Positions 2,636 to 30,252 of a stretch of 64,000 bases of DNA are shown here, in pieces. Below the pieces are notes generated by a model. The model ran no database searches and was not told the origin of the DNA. It saw only the letters and a list, made by a program, of their open reading frames with translations. How positions within the stretch are numbered: the stretch's first letter is position 1; each line of letters starts with the position of its first letter. This stretch comes from Reyranella aquatilis (GTDB lineage Bacteria; Pseudomonadota; Alphaproteobacteria; Reyranellales; Reyranellaceae), in contig NZ_JAJISD010000009.1 of the NCBI RefSeq assembly GCF_020880995.1, positions 186,001 to 250,000 of the forward strand. The letters run 5' to 3'. Both the position numbers and the translations under genes were made by a program.

Positions 2636-3712
2636 CTATTTTTCGATCGTCGGCAACAATGAATACAGGCAGAGCCCGAAGAACAGCAGAGGCACGGTGA
2701 GCCGAAGGTTCCGGCGCACCTCCGGCAGAAGGTAGGGAAAACGCCGCGCGAAGCGACTGTTGTCGAGACCAGGGAACAGGTCGATCAATAGCACCGCGGG
2801 CAGATAGAGATATCCCATGGAGATCATTGCCGCGATCGGCGAATTCATCGAGATCGAGCCGGGGAAGCTCGCTTCGAAAGTGAAGCTGAGGGCCGCGAGG
2901 GCGAGCAGCGTCGAAAACACCATGGGCACACGCTGGGTGTTCGGCAGCACGCTCGTCGAGGCCCACAGCAGGAAAAGAGACAGCGACATGATGGCGATGA
3001 AGGGTACGAACAGGCGCAGTATGTAGCGCGTCCAGTCTCTTTCGACCGTCGTGATCAGCGTAATGCGGGAAAACGGGCGGGCATTCCAGCCGAAGAAACT
3101 GCTCTGCACGAAAGAGACGCCACGCGGCTTCCAGTTGTTCGCCGAGATGTCGGGATTGACCGTCGAGAAGTTGCGGTCGAACTCGGTGGTCGTGAGCGCG
3201 ACCTCATGGGCCGAGTGGCGTGCCGTACTGAAGCTGAGCGGCAGATACTGCGTATCGAAGGGGAAGCTCGACATGTTGGCGCGTATGCGGAAGTCGGCAT
3301 CGAGCCGGCGAATCTGCACGACCCTGCCATCGTGGAATATCGACAGAAAGACGGTCTGCGAGCGCGGGTTGCCGATCATGTTGTCGATGGTGATTCCCGG
3401 GCGCCAGATCTGGCCGAGACGGGCCTCGGCCGCGGCACCCGTCAGGTCGATATGCTCCTCGCCTTTCGCGACCGGATCGAAACGCAGGCCGGGATCGACC
3501 CAGCGCTGAGTGTACTCGATGGAGGCACTGAGTTCGCCCGTGGTCTCGATCAAACGGGTGATGTTGAGGATACGCACCGACAGGCGCACCTCGATGGGCA
3601 GTTCGACGCCTGCCGGCAAGGGAGGCGGAATGGCGGGCGACGCTGCGCTCTGTGCTTGCACGGGGCCTGAGCATGCGATGAGGATCGCCACCAAGGCGAA
3701 GGCCCATCTCAT
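2636..3712 (-). CDS. Prokaryotic pentameric ligand-gated ion channel (pLGIC, ELIC/GLIC type)
   Basis: 358 residues. A signal peptide (1-20) is followed by a beta-rich extracellular domain carrying the bacterial Pro-loop (FPFDTQYLPLSF, about 150-161), which replaces the eukaryotic Cys-loop. Four membrane helices follow: M1 about 228-251, M2 260-279, M3 290-313, M4 335-353. M2 (VFSTLLALAALSFTFE) aligns by eye with the GLIC pore helix, including S6' and T7' and a hydrophobic 9' Leu. The acidic residue at -2'/-1' seen in cation channels is absent and 0' is Arg, so ion selectivity may differ from GLIC (inference). There is no cytoplasmic domain, as is usual in bacteria. Its ATG overlaps the stop of the upstream dCache gene by four bases (ATGA), implying coupled translation. 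Confidence 0.92.
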   Translation of the reverse strand: MRWAFALVAILIACSGPVQAQSAASPAIPPPLPAGVELPIEVRLSVRILNITRLIETTGELSASIEYTQRWVDPGLRFDPVAKGEEHIDLTGAAAEARLGQIWRPGITIDNMIGNPRSQTVFLSIFHDGRVVQIRRLDADFRIRANMSSFPFDTQYLPLSFSTARHSAHEVALTTTEFDRNFSTVNPDISANNWKPRGVSFVQSSFFGWNARPFSRITLITTVERDWTRYILRLFVPFIAIMSLSLFLLWASTSVLPNTQRVPMVFSTLLALAALSFTFEASFPGSISMNSPIAAMISMGYLYLPAVLLIDLFPGLDNSRFARRFPYLLPEVRRNLRLTVPLLFFGLCLYSLLPTIEK

Positions 3713-4827
3713 GTCGCAGGCTCTTTCGCCCCGGCGGAGGCGGGCACCACCCGGCCTGCCAGTGCCGTCGCGGCCTTGACGATCCGGTCGGCGTCCGCAG
3801 CACCCGGCGGCGGAACCGCGCTGCCAGGCTGACGACCCTCGGCCAGGGCTTCGAGCCAGTCGCCCAGCACCTGAAGTGGACGAGCGACGAAGCTCTTCAT
3901 TGCCACGGCGATGACGCTGAAGCAGACGACCACCGCGGCAAACGCCGCAAAAAGCAGCTTCCAGGCCTGGCGCGAGTAGCTGGCGTGCAGGGTCGTGAAA
4001 TTCGCCGCAGCGATGAAGCCGCCGATCATGCGGCCGCTGTAGTCGAGCAGCGGCGTGACGACGATTCCCCAGGTCGCGTCGTCGAGCACGGCTTCGGCGA
4101 AGGAATCCTCGCGCGCCAGACGCGGCGATGCCGCTTCCAGCAACCGCGCAAACAGGGTGCTGTCGGTCGATTCGCTGATGACGAGGTCGCCATACACCTT
4201 CTTGTCGCCGTGCTGCGCTCCCATGCCAACCGAAAGGACGACCGCGACCTCCGCGCCGGTTCGCGTCTTGACCGCCCGGATCAGATCGGGAAGGCCGAGC
4301 CCGACCTCGGCCGTGCCGACCAGCTTGGCTCCGTCCATGACCGGCGCCACGCCCCGGAGGGCCAGCCCTCGCCGGCCCAGTTCGACACCACTCTGACCCA
4401 TATGGCTGTGGTTGACCGCGACGACCATCGGGCGAGCCTGCGAAACGTCGTCGCCAAAATTTTCCGGCTCCTGCAAGCGCAGGAACATCTTGAGATCTGC
4501 GCTCTGGAACTGGAGCATTTCCACGCCATTCTGCTTGCTGAGATAGGCGTAGACCGGCTTCAGCCTCTCGAGGATTGCTCCACGGTCGCCGCTGGCGACC
4601 GCCGAGACGTTACCCGGCTGCAGAGCGAAGACCTGCGCCAGCGCAAGCGCCGTATTGCCGTTTCGTTCCAACGTGGAACGCAACGTAAGGCCGACGGTCT
4701 TGAGAGCCGCACCCTGCCGCTGGCGCATGTCGTCGCGCAAATCGGACAAGGTGAGCGCGATCATGGTACCGAAGCTCGCCAGCAGCACGACCGACATGAT
4801 CGCGGCGATGCGGTTGCCGAACGTCAT
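3709..4827 (-). CDS. Membrane-anchored dCache sensor protein without an output domain
   Basis: 372 residues. TM1 (about 7-28), a large periplasmic domain (about 29-288), TM2 (289-310) and a short cytoplasmic tail of about 60 residues. The periplasmic part has dCache_3-like features of bacterial chemoreceptors and kinases: FLRLQEPENFGDD, then GRRGLALRGVAPV and a second lobe. The region after TM2 (KSFVARPLQVLGDWLEALAE) looks like a partial HAMP helix, but no kinase, cyclase, MCP or GGDEF domain follows. I chose the start at 4827 because AAGGA lies about seven bases upstream; an in-frame start 60 codons further up gives an unlikely N-terminus. Its stop overlaps the pLGIC start, which suggests it works with the channel. 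Confidence 0.85.
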   Translation of the reverse strand: MTFGNRIAAIMSVVLLASFGTMIALTLSDLRDDMRQRQGAALKTVGLTLRSTLERNGNTALALAQVFALQPGNVSAVASGDRGAILERLKPVYAYLSKQNGVEMLQFQSADLKMFLRLQEPENFGDDVSQARPMVVAVNHSHMGQSGVELGRRGLALRGVAPVMDGAKLVGTAEVGLGLPDLIRAVKTRTGAEVAVVLSVGMGAQHGDKKVYGDLVISESTDSTLFARLLEAASPRLAREDSFAEAVLDDATWGIVVTPLLDYSGRMIGGFIAAANFTTLHASYSRQAWKLLFAAFAAVVVCFSVIAVAMKSFVARPLQVLGDWLEALAEGRQPGSAVPPPGAADADRIVKAATALAGRVVPASAGAKEPAT

Positions 4828-5232
4828 GACTTGTCCTTCAGGCGTGGAGTCGTGACCAGAACTCGCGTGAAGTGCGGGGCCGTGTTCGCGCCATCTCCCC
4901 ACGTCGATCGGCGGTATGCGGCGGAAGTCCGGCCCGGAAACGCCACGACTGGCAATCTTGCCGCCGATGGTTCTCGCAACACGACTCCCCCCACCACGTG
5001 ATTGCAACCACGAGTATCACCGGAGACATGGTCCAGCCGGCGACAACGCCAGCCCCACATTTTGATCGATGCCCCGCGAACCGTTCGAAAGCTAACATTG
5101 CGCCGCGCTGCAGGTAAAGCGCCGGCACCCGGCGCGGTCGAATCCACCGCTTCACTACAACTGATATCCGGGACGCCTCCAGTTCATCGATTGGGCCCAC
5201 TCCCCGTCATCCACGCCCGCACTTTCCGTCCC
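4828..5232. other. Intergenic region between the dCache gene and the ABC permease
   Basis: About 405 bases with no convincing gene; both flanking genes are on the minus strand. It must hold the promoter for the dCache-pLGIC unit. I could not pick a clear -35/-10 pair. The only structured element is the hairpin at 5119-5135. Confidence 0.5.
5116..5135 (-). terminator. Weak hairpin terminator downstream of the ABC permease
   Basis: Stem GCGCCGG/CCGGCGC with a three-base loop. Read on the minus strand it is followed by TTTA, a short U tract. It would end the dioxygenase-ATPase-permease transcript before the dCache-pLGIC unit begins. Confidence 0.35.
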
Positions 5233-27727: not shown

Positions 27728-29968
27728 TCAGCGCCACAAGACGAAGGCGATGCAGGCGGCGGTGATCGTTCCCACGAAGCCGAGGGCGAACAGGGCCCTG
27801 CCGGTCCGGTCGACGAGTACGGTCGAACGGCCTTCCAGGCGGGTCTTCTCGCCGACCAGCGCCGTGATGATGCAGACAAGGCAGAGCGCGAAGAAGACGT
27901 AGAAGCCGTATTCGACGGCGATCACGTACCCGACATTGCCCAACTGCGAATTGATCGACGAGAGAAGCACCGCGCCCGAAAGCCCGGCGGTGATCGCCAC
28001 CGTGACCTTGGCCGCCGCCAGGACCGGCGGGAAATAGAGCGTCGCGAACATGATCAGCGTCATCAGGCCGACCGGAAGAAGGGTCTTGATGAGGGTCGTG
28101 GCGATGTCGCGCTGCACCTCGATCAGCATCGCGAAGCCCGACAGTTCCCGCACCCGATCGAGGCCGACGAGGCCGGGATCGCCGAGGCCGGAGCGCGATA
28201 CCAGGATTTCGCGCACCTCGGTCACCCGCAGCGGCTGCCATTGCGTGAGATTGCGGAACGCCTTGGGAGCGGCCGTGCCGCCGAAGGCATTGGTCGCCCC
28301 GAACCCCGCATCGATACCCTCGAAGGCGCTGCGGTCGAGGACATAGACCATCCGGTCGCTGGCGGCGCGGGCGTTGAAGAAGCGGATTTCCAGCTTCTGG
28401 CGATCGGCGGGATACCGCCGCAGGTCGAAGTCGTTCTTGAAATCCCCGCTGACCCGCCACAGGCGGTAGGTCGTGCCGTCGTCGAGATCGCGCTGGCTGG
28501 CCGGGCGCGCGCTCGCGAAGGTGCCGCGGATCATGTCCGGAAACTCGAACTGCACCGGATCGGCGTCGGTCGCCGCCAAGCCTCGCGCGAAACGCACCCA
28601 GACGTAGAAGTCCGCGGAGAAGACCGACTGGGCGACATCGATGCGGGCGATCTCGTTGAGAAAGATGCCGGTATAGACGACCTGCTGCCGCCGCGCGTAT
28701 CGCCCGGGGCCGATTTCGACCAGCGTGCCGGCCGCGACTTCCTCCGCCGCCGACGACGATACGGGAACGAGCTGGATCGGCGCCGATTCGAAGAGCCCAC
28801 CCTTGCCGAAGCGCCCCATCCTGATGGGGAGCGAGCGTCCCCGCTCCGGCGTGAACCACATGGGACCGAGCAATCCCGGCACGGCGCGGGCAGGCCCGTT
28901 CAGGGAAGCGAGATAGTCGAAAGCCGCCTTCCGCCGACTGCGCAGGTCGGTGGCGTTCTTGCTGGCGAAGGCCGCCCGGATGGCGGCGATGGCGAGCTGC
29001 GCCGAATCGTAGGCCTGCACCGAGAGCCACGAAACCGACGCCTCCGGGCCGAAGCGCGCCCGGTAGCGTTCCGTGAAGGCGAGCGTCTCGGCGTTGGCGC
29101 TGTCGAGGATCACCGGCGTGGCGATGAAGAGATCCCGCGTGAAGTGACCCGGCGCGCGGCGCTCCTCCGGCTGGTCGCGGAACAGATTGAAGAAGGACTG
29201 ATCGCTGAGCACGCCGGGGCCGAGCACCGGCGCGGTGACGCCGGCGCGGCGCAGACCCATCATGATGGGGGCTGCATCGGCTTCCAGAGCGCCCAGCACG
29301 ACGGCGGGCTTGCCGGGATCGGCGGCAATCCTGCGCACTGCCTCGTCCCGCTCCGCCGCGTTCCTGAAAGGATGGTAGGTCGTTTGCAGCCCGAGCCGTT
29401 CGGCGCCGCGCCTGAACCCATCGGCGATCGTCTGGCCGTAGCCGTTGTCGGCAAATACCACCGCCGCCCGCCCTCCACCCAGCGCATGGCGAAGATAGTC
29501 GGCCACCGATTCGCCTAGGTCGCTGTTGCGGAAGACGGTCTGGAAGGTCGTGGCGTTGTTCGTGACCAGATCGCTGCCCGCGGTCGAGACGATCGACGCG
29601 ATGCCCGCCTGGGCGAAGGCCGGCCCTGCCGGCAGTGCCAGGATCGAGAGGACCGGGCCCACGGCCACGATGGCCCCGCTCTCGCCGACGCGGGTGGCCG
29701 CTTCGCGCGCACCGGCTTCGGTGCTGCGGTCGTCCTGGATCTCGAGTTCGATGCGAGGGCCGACACCGCTTGCATTGGCTTCATCGACGGCCAGGCGGAC
29801 GCTGTCGAGAAAGGGCTTGCCGTAGGATGCCTCGTATTCACCGGTGCGGCTCACGACCACGCCGAGCTTGGCCGTCGCATTCTGGGCTGCCGCCGGCGGC
29901 GCCCCCATCAGCAGCAAGCCGAACACCAGCACCAGGAGCCGCGATGCGACCGGAAGGACTTTACTCAT
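27728..29968 (-). CDS. Fusion of a periplasmic ligand-binding domain to a pentameric ligand-gated ion channel
   Basis: 746 residues. Signal peptide 1-28. Residues about 32-400 form a type I periplasmic-binding fold like LivK and class C GPCR ligand domains (LGVVVSRTGEYEASYGKPFL, AIVAVGPVLSILALPAGPAF). Residues about 425-618 are a pLGIC extracellular domain with a Pro-loop (RRYPADRQKLEIRFFN, 517-532). Then M1 about 622-645, M2 653-672 (KVTVAITAGLSGAVLLSSIN, with a 9' Leu), M3 680-703 and M4 725-744. No acidic residue lies at the inner pore mouth and 0' is Lys. No Cys-loop and no cytoplasmic domain. A ligand such as an amino acid could bind the PBP part and gate the channel (inference). A GTG at 29974 is an alternative start. 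Confidence 0.9.
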   Translation of the reverse strand: MSKVLPVASRLLVLVFGLLLMGAPPAAAQNATAKLGVVVSRTGEYEASYGKPFLDSVRLAVDEANASGVGPRIELEIQDDRSTEAGAREAATRVGESGAIVAVGPVLSILALPAGPAFAQAGIASIVSTAGSDLVTNNATTFQTVFRNSDLGESVADYLRHALGGGRAAVVFADNGYGQTIADGFRRGAERLGLQTTYHPFRNAAERDEAVRRIAADPGKPAVVLGALEADAAPIMMGLRRAGVTAPVLGPGVLSDQSFFNLFRDQPEERRAPGHFTRDLFIATPVILDSANAETLAFTERYRARFGPEASVSWLSVQAYDSAQLAIAAIRAAFASKNATDLRSRRKAAFDYLASLNGPARAVPGLLGPMWFTPERGRSLPIRMGRFGKGGLFESAPIQLVPVSSSAAEEVAAGTLVEIGPGRYARRQQVVYTGIFLNEIARIDVAQSVFSADFYVWVRFARGLAATDADPVQFEFPDMIRGTFASARPASQRDLDDGTTYRLWRVSGDFKNDFDLRRYPADRQKLEIRFFNARAASDRMVYVLDRSAFEGIDAGFGATNAFGGTAAPKAFRNLTQWQPLRVTEVREILVSRSGLGDPGLVGLDRVRELSGFAMLIEVQRDIATTLIKTLLPVGLMTLIMFATLYFPPVLAAAKVTVAITAGLSGAVLLSSINSQLGNVGYVIAVEYGFYVFFALCLVCIITALVGEKTRLEGRSTVLVDRTGRALFALGFVGTITAACIAFVLWR

Positions 29969-30252
29969 GACCACTCATCGGCCTCGATGGAACAACGCGG
30001 ATCGCCGGGTCCGGCGGGAAATCTATACCAACTCCTACCTTACACCCGCATTGACTCGCTCAACCCGGAGTGAAAGCATTTTCACCGACAAAGGGCTTCG
30101 CTCCGATCGCGGCGTTGCGGGTTGATCCCCGCGTTTGGCTGACGGCCGGAAGTTGAGTGAGAGCGACCGTTCGCGGACGCTGGGGCTGCCCGTCCTTCCG
30201 GACGCCGTCCGGAGCTTCTACGCGCGTTTTTCGCGAGAAGGAGGACGTTGTC

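Follow-up and report, generated by a model that had tools for sequence, protein, structure and literature searches.

Fusions of an N-terminal PBP-I domain to a pLGIC have been described in Bradyrhizobium japonicum and Magnetospirillum magnetotacticum, and a chemotactic function was proposed for such channels (Tasneem et al. 2004, PMC549065). Judged by the description in the accessible part of that paper, these fusions show the same order of PBP-I, ligand-binding domain and four TM helices as the protein studied here, and they likewise come from alphaproteobacterial hosts. Since the fusion was described in 2004, the architecture of our protein (the window protein, the window being the whole stretch of 64,000 nucleotides that was analysed) is not new, and the initial annotation was right that pLGICs with extra domains had been noted among prokaryotes, the flytrap fusion itself included (PMC549065). 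The term MscS does not occur in the accessible text of the same paper. DeCLIC, whose structure is known, is a pLGIC that likewise carries an added N-terminal domain in the periplasm, but its NTD1 and NTD2 lobes resemble calcium-binding domains, unlike the window flytrap (accessible parts of PMC9897478 and PMC12664993). None of six terms for extra domains appears in the accessible text of Jaiteh et al. 2016 (PMC4795631), and a search of the open-licence PMC literature for the function of PBP-I-fused pLGICs found nothing on it, the papers that came up being those on DeCLIC.

Other known systems share one part of the protein. GLIC, ELIC, GluCl and GABA-A beta3 have in common with it the ECD/TMD fold, the acid of the Pro/Cys-loop and the pre-M1 basic residue, but they carry no flytrap and are 14–18% identical to it (Foldseek). 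LivJ and LivK share the flytrap fold (Z up to 41.5) and the serine at S108, but they are soluble, and their Thr102 and acidic contact are both glycine in the window protein. In the animal mGlu (class C GPCRs) and NMDA receptors a PBP-I flytrap also precedes the membrane domain, but the membrane domains are unrelated. In the receptor class to which the window protein belongs, a single bacterial chain unites the two principal folds by which animal neurotransmission senses ligands.

A flytrap and a complete pLGIC in one chain

The gene lies on the minus strand (Table 1), the plus-strand frame being interrupted by a stop, and the span first assigned to it, 27728–29968, is correct for the ATG form, whose 746-residue numbering is used throughout.

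Table 1. Features of the flytrap-fused channel gene (window positions) and of one MscS-type relative (last row, positions in locus L037)
Feature	Position	Strand	Evidence or remark
Whole gene	27728..29974	-	748 codons from GTG 29974; 746 from ATG 29968; stop 27728-27730
Signal-peptide-like N-terminus, residues about 1-28	29885..29968	-	Kyte-Doolittle hydrophobic stretch; pLDDT <50 for 1-22
PBP-I / Venus flytrap, residues 31-402	28763..29878	-	Peripla_BP_6 E 1.4e-38; LivJ 4gnr Z 41.5
Flytrap contact position S108 (LivJ Ser79 position), kept	29645..29647	-	
Flytrap contact position G131 (LivJ Thr102 position), lost	29576..29578	-	
Flytrap contact position G252 (acidic in LivJ-type proteins), lost	29213..29215	-	
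Linker to first ECD strand, residues 403-422	28703..28762	-	pLDDT block means 83-91
pLGIC extracellular domain (ECD), residues 423-620	28109..28702	-	Model and Foldseek; MscS-type ECD profile comparison
Pro-loop core, residues 519-524, with P520 and D522	28397..28414	-	Conservation in pLGIC-type alignment
Pre-M1 arginine R620	28109..28111	-	R/K 66/66 in pLGIC-type alignment
Transmembrane domain (TMD) M1-M4, residues 622-745	27734..28105	-	Four model helices; TIGR00860 E 2e-4
M2 pore helix, residues 648-676; A-1', K0' (K654), T2', T6', L9'	27941..28027	-	
MscS-type fusion, L037	277-3489	-	Flytrap and pLGIC ECD on MscS pore

Peripla_BP_6 matches residues 35–360 (Pfam; 133.9 bits against a cut-off of 31.7, E 1.4e-38), and ANF_receptor lies barely above its cut-off. 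In the channel half, Neur_chan_memb reaches E 0.41 with the full protein and 0.022 with the C-terminal part alone (Pfam), and the ECD is not matched by PF02931, among whose members the window protein is absent, so that the channel half would be missed by Pfam alone. TIGR00860 matches residues 617–707 (NCBIfam), and a PDB sequence search aligned residues 606–736 with GluCl/GABA-A and GLIC-chimera chains and residues 27–364 with LivJ/LivK-type proteins, no match among the best 60 of 78 spanning both halves. The MscS beta-domain (PF00924) is absent from the window protein according to both Pfam and our own MscS profile.

The AlphaFold2 model built from a 66-row homologue alignment (mean pLDDT 89.7, pTM 0.85) contains a flytrap, an ECD that is mostly beta structure (about ten strands) and, at the C-terminal end, four long helices, with M1–M4 predicted at residues 622–643, 648–676, 684–711 and 717–745. 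In Foldseek, the flytrap part finds Leu/Ile/Val-binding proteins, and the matches of the channel half include GABA-A beta3 (9feu, E 5e-16, TM 0.71 by target) as well as GluCl (3rhw, E 2e-15). In the VIA-align comparison, whose best 50 rows are all flytrap matches and bear on the flytrap and not on the channel half, the model superposes on LivJ 4gnr (Z 41.5, 2.7 Å, 340 residues) and mGlu8 6bt5 (Z 36.2, 2.8 Å, 351 residues). The N-terminal part combines the two-lobed LIVBP fold with Peripla_BP_6 above cut-off, as in a PBP-I/Venus flytrap, and the remainder shows the AChBP/GLIC-type ECD beta-sandwich, a P-x-D Pro-loop, a pre-M1 basic residue and four TM helices, as in a pLGIC. In agreement with these data, the initial proposal of a class C GPCR-like flytrap and a complete pLGIC in one chain is borne out by Pfam, the model, Foldseek and VIA-align, the mGlu8 superposition speaking for the flytrap type, P520-x-D522 for the Pro-loop and the four C-terminal helices for M1–M4; the structure prediction that it had called for is confident and places the flytrap at the N-terminus.

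Selection and distribution in the genus

Across the whole gene, dN/dS is 0.162 against L003 (81% identical) and 0.120 against L068 (84% identical). By domain, the values for flytrap, ECD and TMD are 0.14, 0.15 and 0.18 against L003, and 0.11, 0.08 and 0.09 against L068; all three domains are under purifying selection. The gene lies between an aminotransferase gene and an EF-G-like gene. Both flanks align with the window in L003, L068 and L069, of which L069 looks like a second record of the L003 sequence, and one flank does so in L070 and L071. A match to the channel half is found in 7 of 65 genus genomes, one of these being merely a 40-residue piece, and in 4 of the 44 with at least 90% completeness; the gene, absent from most genus mates, is therefore dispensable. 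Identical frame lengths suggest that L068 comes from the same genome as G803, L070 from that of G805 and L071 from that of G804.

The window also encodes a second, flytrap-less pLGIC (2636–3712, minus strand, 358 aa; PF02931 E 2.5e-16), which shares 4 bases with the gene of a dCache_3 sensor (3709–5007, minus strand; PF14827 E 5e-24). The same pairing, a stand-alone Cache gene beside the channel, is described for Rhodopseudomonas in the accessible part of Tasneem et al. 2004 (PMC549065).

Flytrap and ECD on two kinds of pore

An ECD-alignment scan of 84,980 species genomes gave at least 78 loci, and further searches yielded matches in 43 of 398 genomes at the level of the phylum and 6 of 385 at that of the class. 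With L032, L033, L038 and L069 (repeats or apparent copies) and L127 (identical to L056) left out, 111 loci, our own included, were sorted by our own profiles. Flytrap, ECD and pLGIC TMD follow each other in 79 of the 111, a shared domain order which shows that the fusion is not due to chance. A further 23 carry flytrap and ECD on an MscS pore, five are pLGICs without a detected flytrap, three have flytrap and ECD without a pore (ORF cut short or pore missed) and one is an MscS protein in which no flytrap was found; L066 and L105, which may be cut or frame-broken genes, were counted as flytrap-less. Flytrap-fused members occur in at least six phyla, the record titles naming Pseudomonadota, Cyanobacteriota, Chloroflexota, Thermodesulfobacteriota, Verrucomicrobiota, Myxococcota and SAR324.

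The flytrap-ECD-MscS proteins (L034, L037, L039 and others) have the same flytrap, ECD and junction motif as the window protein, but differ from it in the MscS pore (PF00924), the loss of the Pro-loop acid and an N-terminal membrane anchor. In L034, L037, L039 and L143, Peripla_BP_6 and MS_channel_2nd are both recognised by Pfam. A profile made from pLGIC-type ECDs alone matches 23 of 24 MscS-type proteins (E 4.7e-29 to 3.5e-41); the exception, L067, in which no flytrap was found either, has no match to this profile and counts against shared ECDs. The reverse profile, from MscS-type ECDs, matches the pLGIC-type proteins listed (weakest 2.2e-10), and profile–profile comparison of the two ECD types gives a probability of 100 (E 5e-49). 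The ECD fragment of L034 was modelled at pLDDT 71.6 and pTM 0.52, and this model superposes on GABA-A beta3 chain 6qfa (Z 13.8, 2.9 Å, 159 residues), its best 50 Foldseek rows all being pLGICs. A kinship between the TMDs of the two types was not shown (profile comparison probability 12). On the minus strand of L034 (1–3342), the protein also has a C-terminal cNMP-binding domain, cut off by the end of the locus.

In the ECD tree the MscS type forms one clade (22 rows, SH-aLRT 99), and in the flytrap tree 18 MscS rows do not, three changes being counted there, of which well-supported branches force only one. A nesting of the MscS type inside the flytrap-pLGICs, as in the ECD-tree topology, was rejected as a conclusion: the AU test does not reject a flytrap-pLGIC clade (p 0.66), and the constrained tree that holds the flytrap-pLGICs together is 9.1 log units better.

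The two-pore architecture of the flytrap-ECD family is well supported, and it is at the family level that the finding is unexpected, with one sensor on two pores and loss of the Pro-loop acid; no title on a pLGIC-ECD/MscS fusion was found in the open-licence PMC literature. Whether flytrap and ECD form a portable sensing module that drives both pores, giving putative ligand-gated MscS channels, we regard as evenly balanced. MscS is a heptamer and pLGICs are pentamers, so that an exchange of pores would imply a change in ECD symmetry. The family also suggests that some MscS channels may respond to a ligand in the periplasm.

Proposed coupling residues change with the pore

For residue counts, which depend on the joint alignment, 66 of the 79 pLGIC-type proteins (without nine near-identical Pseudanabaena rows and proteins of <600 residues) were aligned with 23 of the 24 MscS-type proteins (without L067). 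The P520 position is proline in 66/66 pLGIC-type versus 5/23 MscS-type proteins, the D522 position is acidic in 65/66 versus 0/23 (22 Gly, 1 Ser), and the R620 position is basic in 66/66 versus 5/23 (L052, L053, L138, L142 and L143). Other ECD positions are invariant in the MscS type (Y432, G434, W457, R459, W577, G596 and P598, 23/23 each) and frequent in the pLGIC type (61, 64, 65, 65, 66, 55 and 54 of 66, in the same order). The linker is followed by a VVYTG motif (430–434), of which V431, Y432 and G434 are common to pLGIC- and MscS-type relatives. As the MscS-type ECDs form one clade, the rows are related and the counts do not represent independent events. If the sensing module is portable, the Pro-loop acid and the pre-M1 basic residue would be a sign of a link with the pLGIC pore and not of ECD folding, and the pLGIC/MscS family offers a natural experiment on how binding is coupled to gating in Cys-loop receptors.

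Pore entrance and flytrap pocket

According to the accessible part of Tasneem et al. 2004 (PMC549065), A-[RK] at the pore entrance denotes an anion channel and E-[RK] a cation channel. With primed numbers assigned from the basic residue at 0', the M2 entrance of the window protein (A-1', K0', without an acid at -1' or -2') fits A-[RK]; by this motif the channel is expected to be anion-selective. Among the pLGIC-type relatives, 0' is basic in 52/66, an acid stands at -1' or -2' in 11/66, and a basic 0' without such an acid is found in 43/66. Two members of its own clade, L072 and L074, carry E at -1', so selectivity is not fixed within the clade.

In the 4gnr alignment, LivJ Ser79, Thr102 and the acidic contact to the alpha-amino group, which we take to be Glu226, correspond to S108, G131 and G252 of the window protein, so that one of the three positions expected of an alpha-amino-acid-binding flytrap is kept. 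Docking places Ser79 and Thr102 among the contacts of LivJ to isoleucine (accessible part of PMC6983066). Across the pLGIC-type alignment the contacts are S in 61/66, T in 45/66 and D/E in 44/66, and all three in 40/66; all three are present in 4 of 20 MscS-type flytraps. The nearest relatives, L003 and L068, have the same two glycines, L070 and L071 also lack the T and D/E contacts, and the clade members L072, L074 and L075 keep them. The pocket has thus diversified among relatives, and for the window protein an amino acid should not be taken as the default ligand. The expectation of the initial annotation that the flytrap probably binds an amino acid finds no support here, G131 and G252 replacing LivJ-type contacts, and such a ligand is doubtful on the residues compared. 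Other PBP-I neighbours among the best 50 VIA-align rows bind aromatic acids, urea or amides. The pore entrance and pocket covary: the window protein, L003 and L068 combine A-1' with the G,G pocket, versus E-1' with T,D in L072 and L074.

Proposed gating and alternatives

The domains and their order, the conserved P520, D522 and R620 and the purifying selection in three domains are computed from the data, as is the retention of flytrap and ECD, but not of the Pro-loop acid, in relatives with an unrelated pore. On balance, we consider the window protein somewhat more probably than otherwise a putative pentameric channel that sits in the inner membrane, faces the periplasm and is gated by its flytrap. 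The N-terminal flytrap would close on a small solute, probably no alpha-amino acid, and the linker, which is short and well ordered, would convey the closure as a pull on the first ECD strand; the ECD movement would be relayed by D522, R620 and the M2–M3 loop to M2, the gate at L9' would open, and the A-1'/K0' entrance would favour anions. The pentamer, conductance, selectivity, direction of gating, class of ligand and location of the agonist in the flytrap rather than the ECD are what we infer. That 23 proteins carry flytrap and ECD on another pore agrees with the two acting together as a single sensor. Most PBP-I receptors act as dimers, which gives no simple fit with five-fold symmetry and counts against a flytrap-gated pentamer. 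A possible though less probable alternative is that the flytrap only modulates the channel or concentrates the ligand, the agonist proper binding at the classical ECD interface, as in GLIC and ELIC. It agrees with the view of Tasneem et al. 2004 (PMC549065, accessible part) that the PBP-I domain serves preliminary concentration or sensing, with the role as modulator of the different N-terminal domain of DeCLIC (accessible parts of PMC9897478 and PMC12664993) and with the existence of flytrap-less pLGICs that share the ECD, one of them within the window. Against it, the MscS type keeps flytrap and ECD though the Pro-loop acid is lost, leaving an ECD without its usual output contact, an arrangement with which an ECD site would still be compatible.

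That the channel is gated by an amino acid bound as in LivJ or mGluR, the ligand first suggested, appears improbable. The best structural neighbours are the LivJ/LivK and mGlu flytraps, and the S, T and D/E contacts are all kept in 40/66 relatives, but two of the three are glycine in the window protein, L003 and L068, both are missing from L070 and L071, only L072, L074 and L075 keep both within the clade, and binders of aromatic acids, urea or amides stand among the PBP-I neighbours listed. We think still less of a non-conducting receptor that docks, for example, to a transporter or another signalling protein. ABC importers are what flytraps normally work with, which favours such a role, and electrophysiology of a flytrap-pLGIC fusion was not found in the open-licence PMC literature; M1–M4, L9' and the coupling set are, however, kept under purifying selection, and the adjoining aminotransferase and EF-G-like genes include no transporter. 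An assembly artefact, a chance fusion or a decaying gene, for which the patchy presence within the genus might speak, is hardly credible, being refuted by 78 further loci of identical architecture, shared synteny, dN/dS of 0.12–0.16 and the confident model.

Additional domains and paired genes

In L076 (3711–7268), L097 (3681–7313) and L120 (1–2961), all on the plus strand, SBP_bac_1, of PBP-II type, follows M4 in a predicted periplasmic position, and L077 has an extension similar to these. Two family ORFs are present in 23 of 78 loci, on one strand in 22, some of the second ORFs being pieces. The paired ORFs (L077, L078, L102, L106, L112, L119, L124 and L131 among the loci) often overlap or stand a few dozen bases apart and are candidates for heteromeric channels. 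Neighbouring proteins of ~920 aa with Peripla_BP_6 and SBP_bac_5 are encoded on the plus strand in L100 (474–3248), L126 (890–3670) and L131 (758–3523), and neighbours of similar size in L121 and L141.
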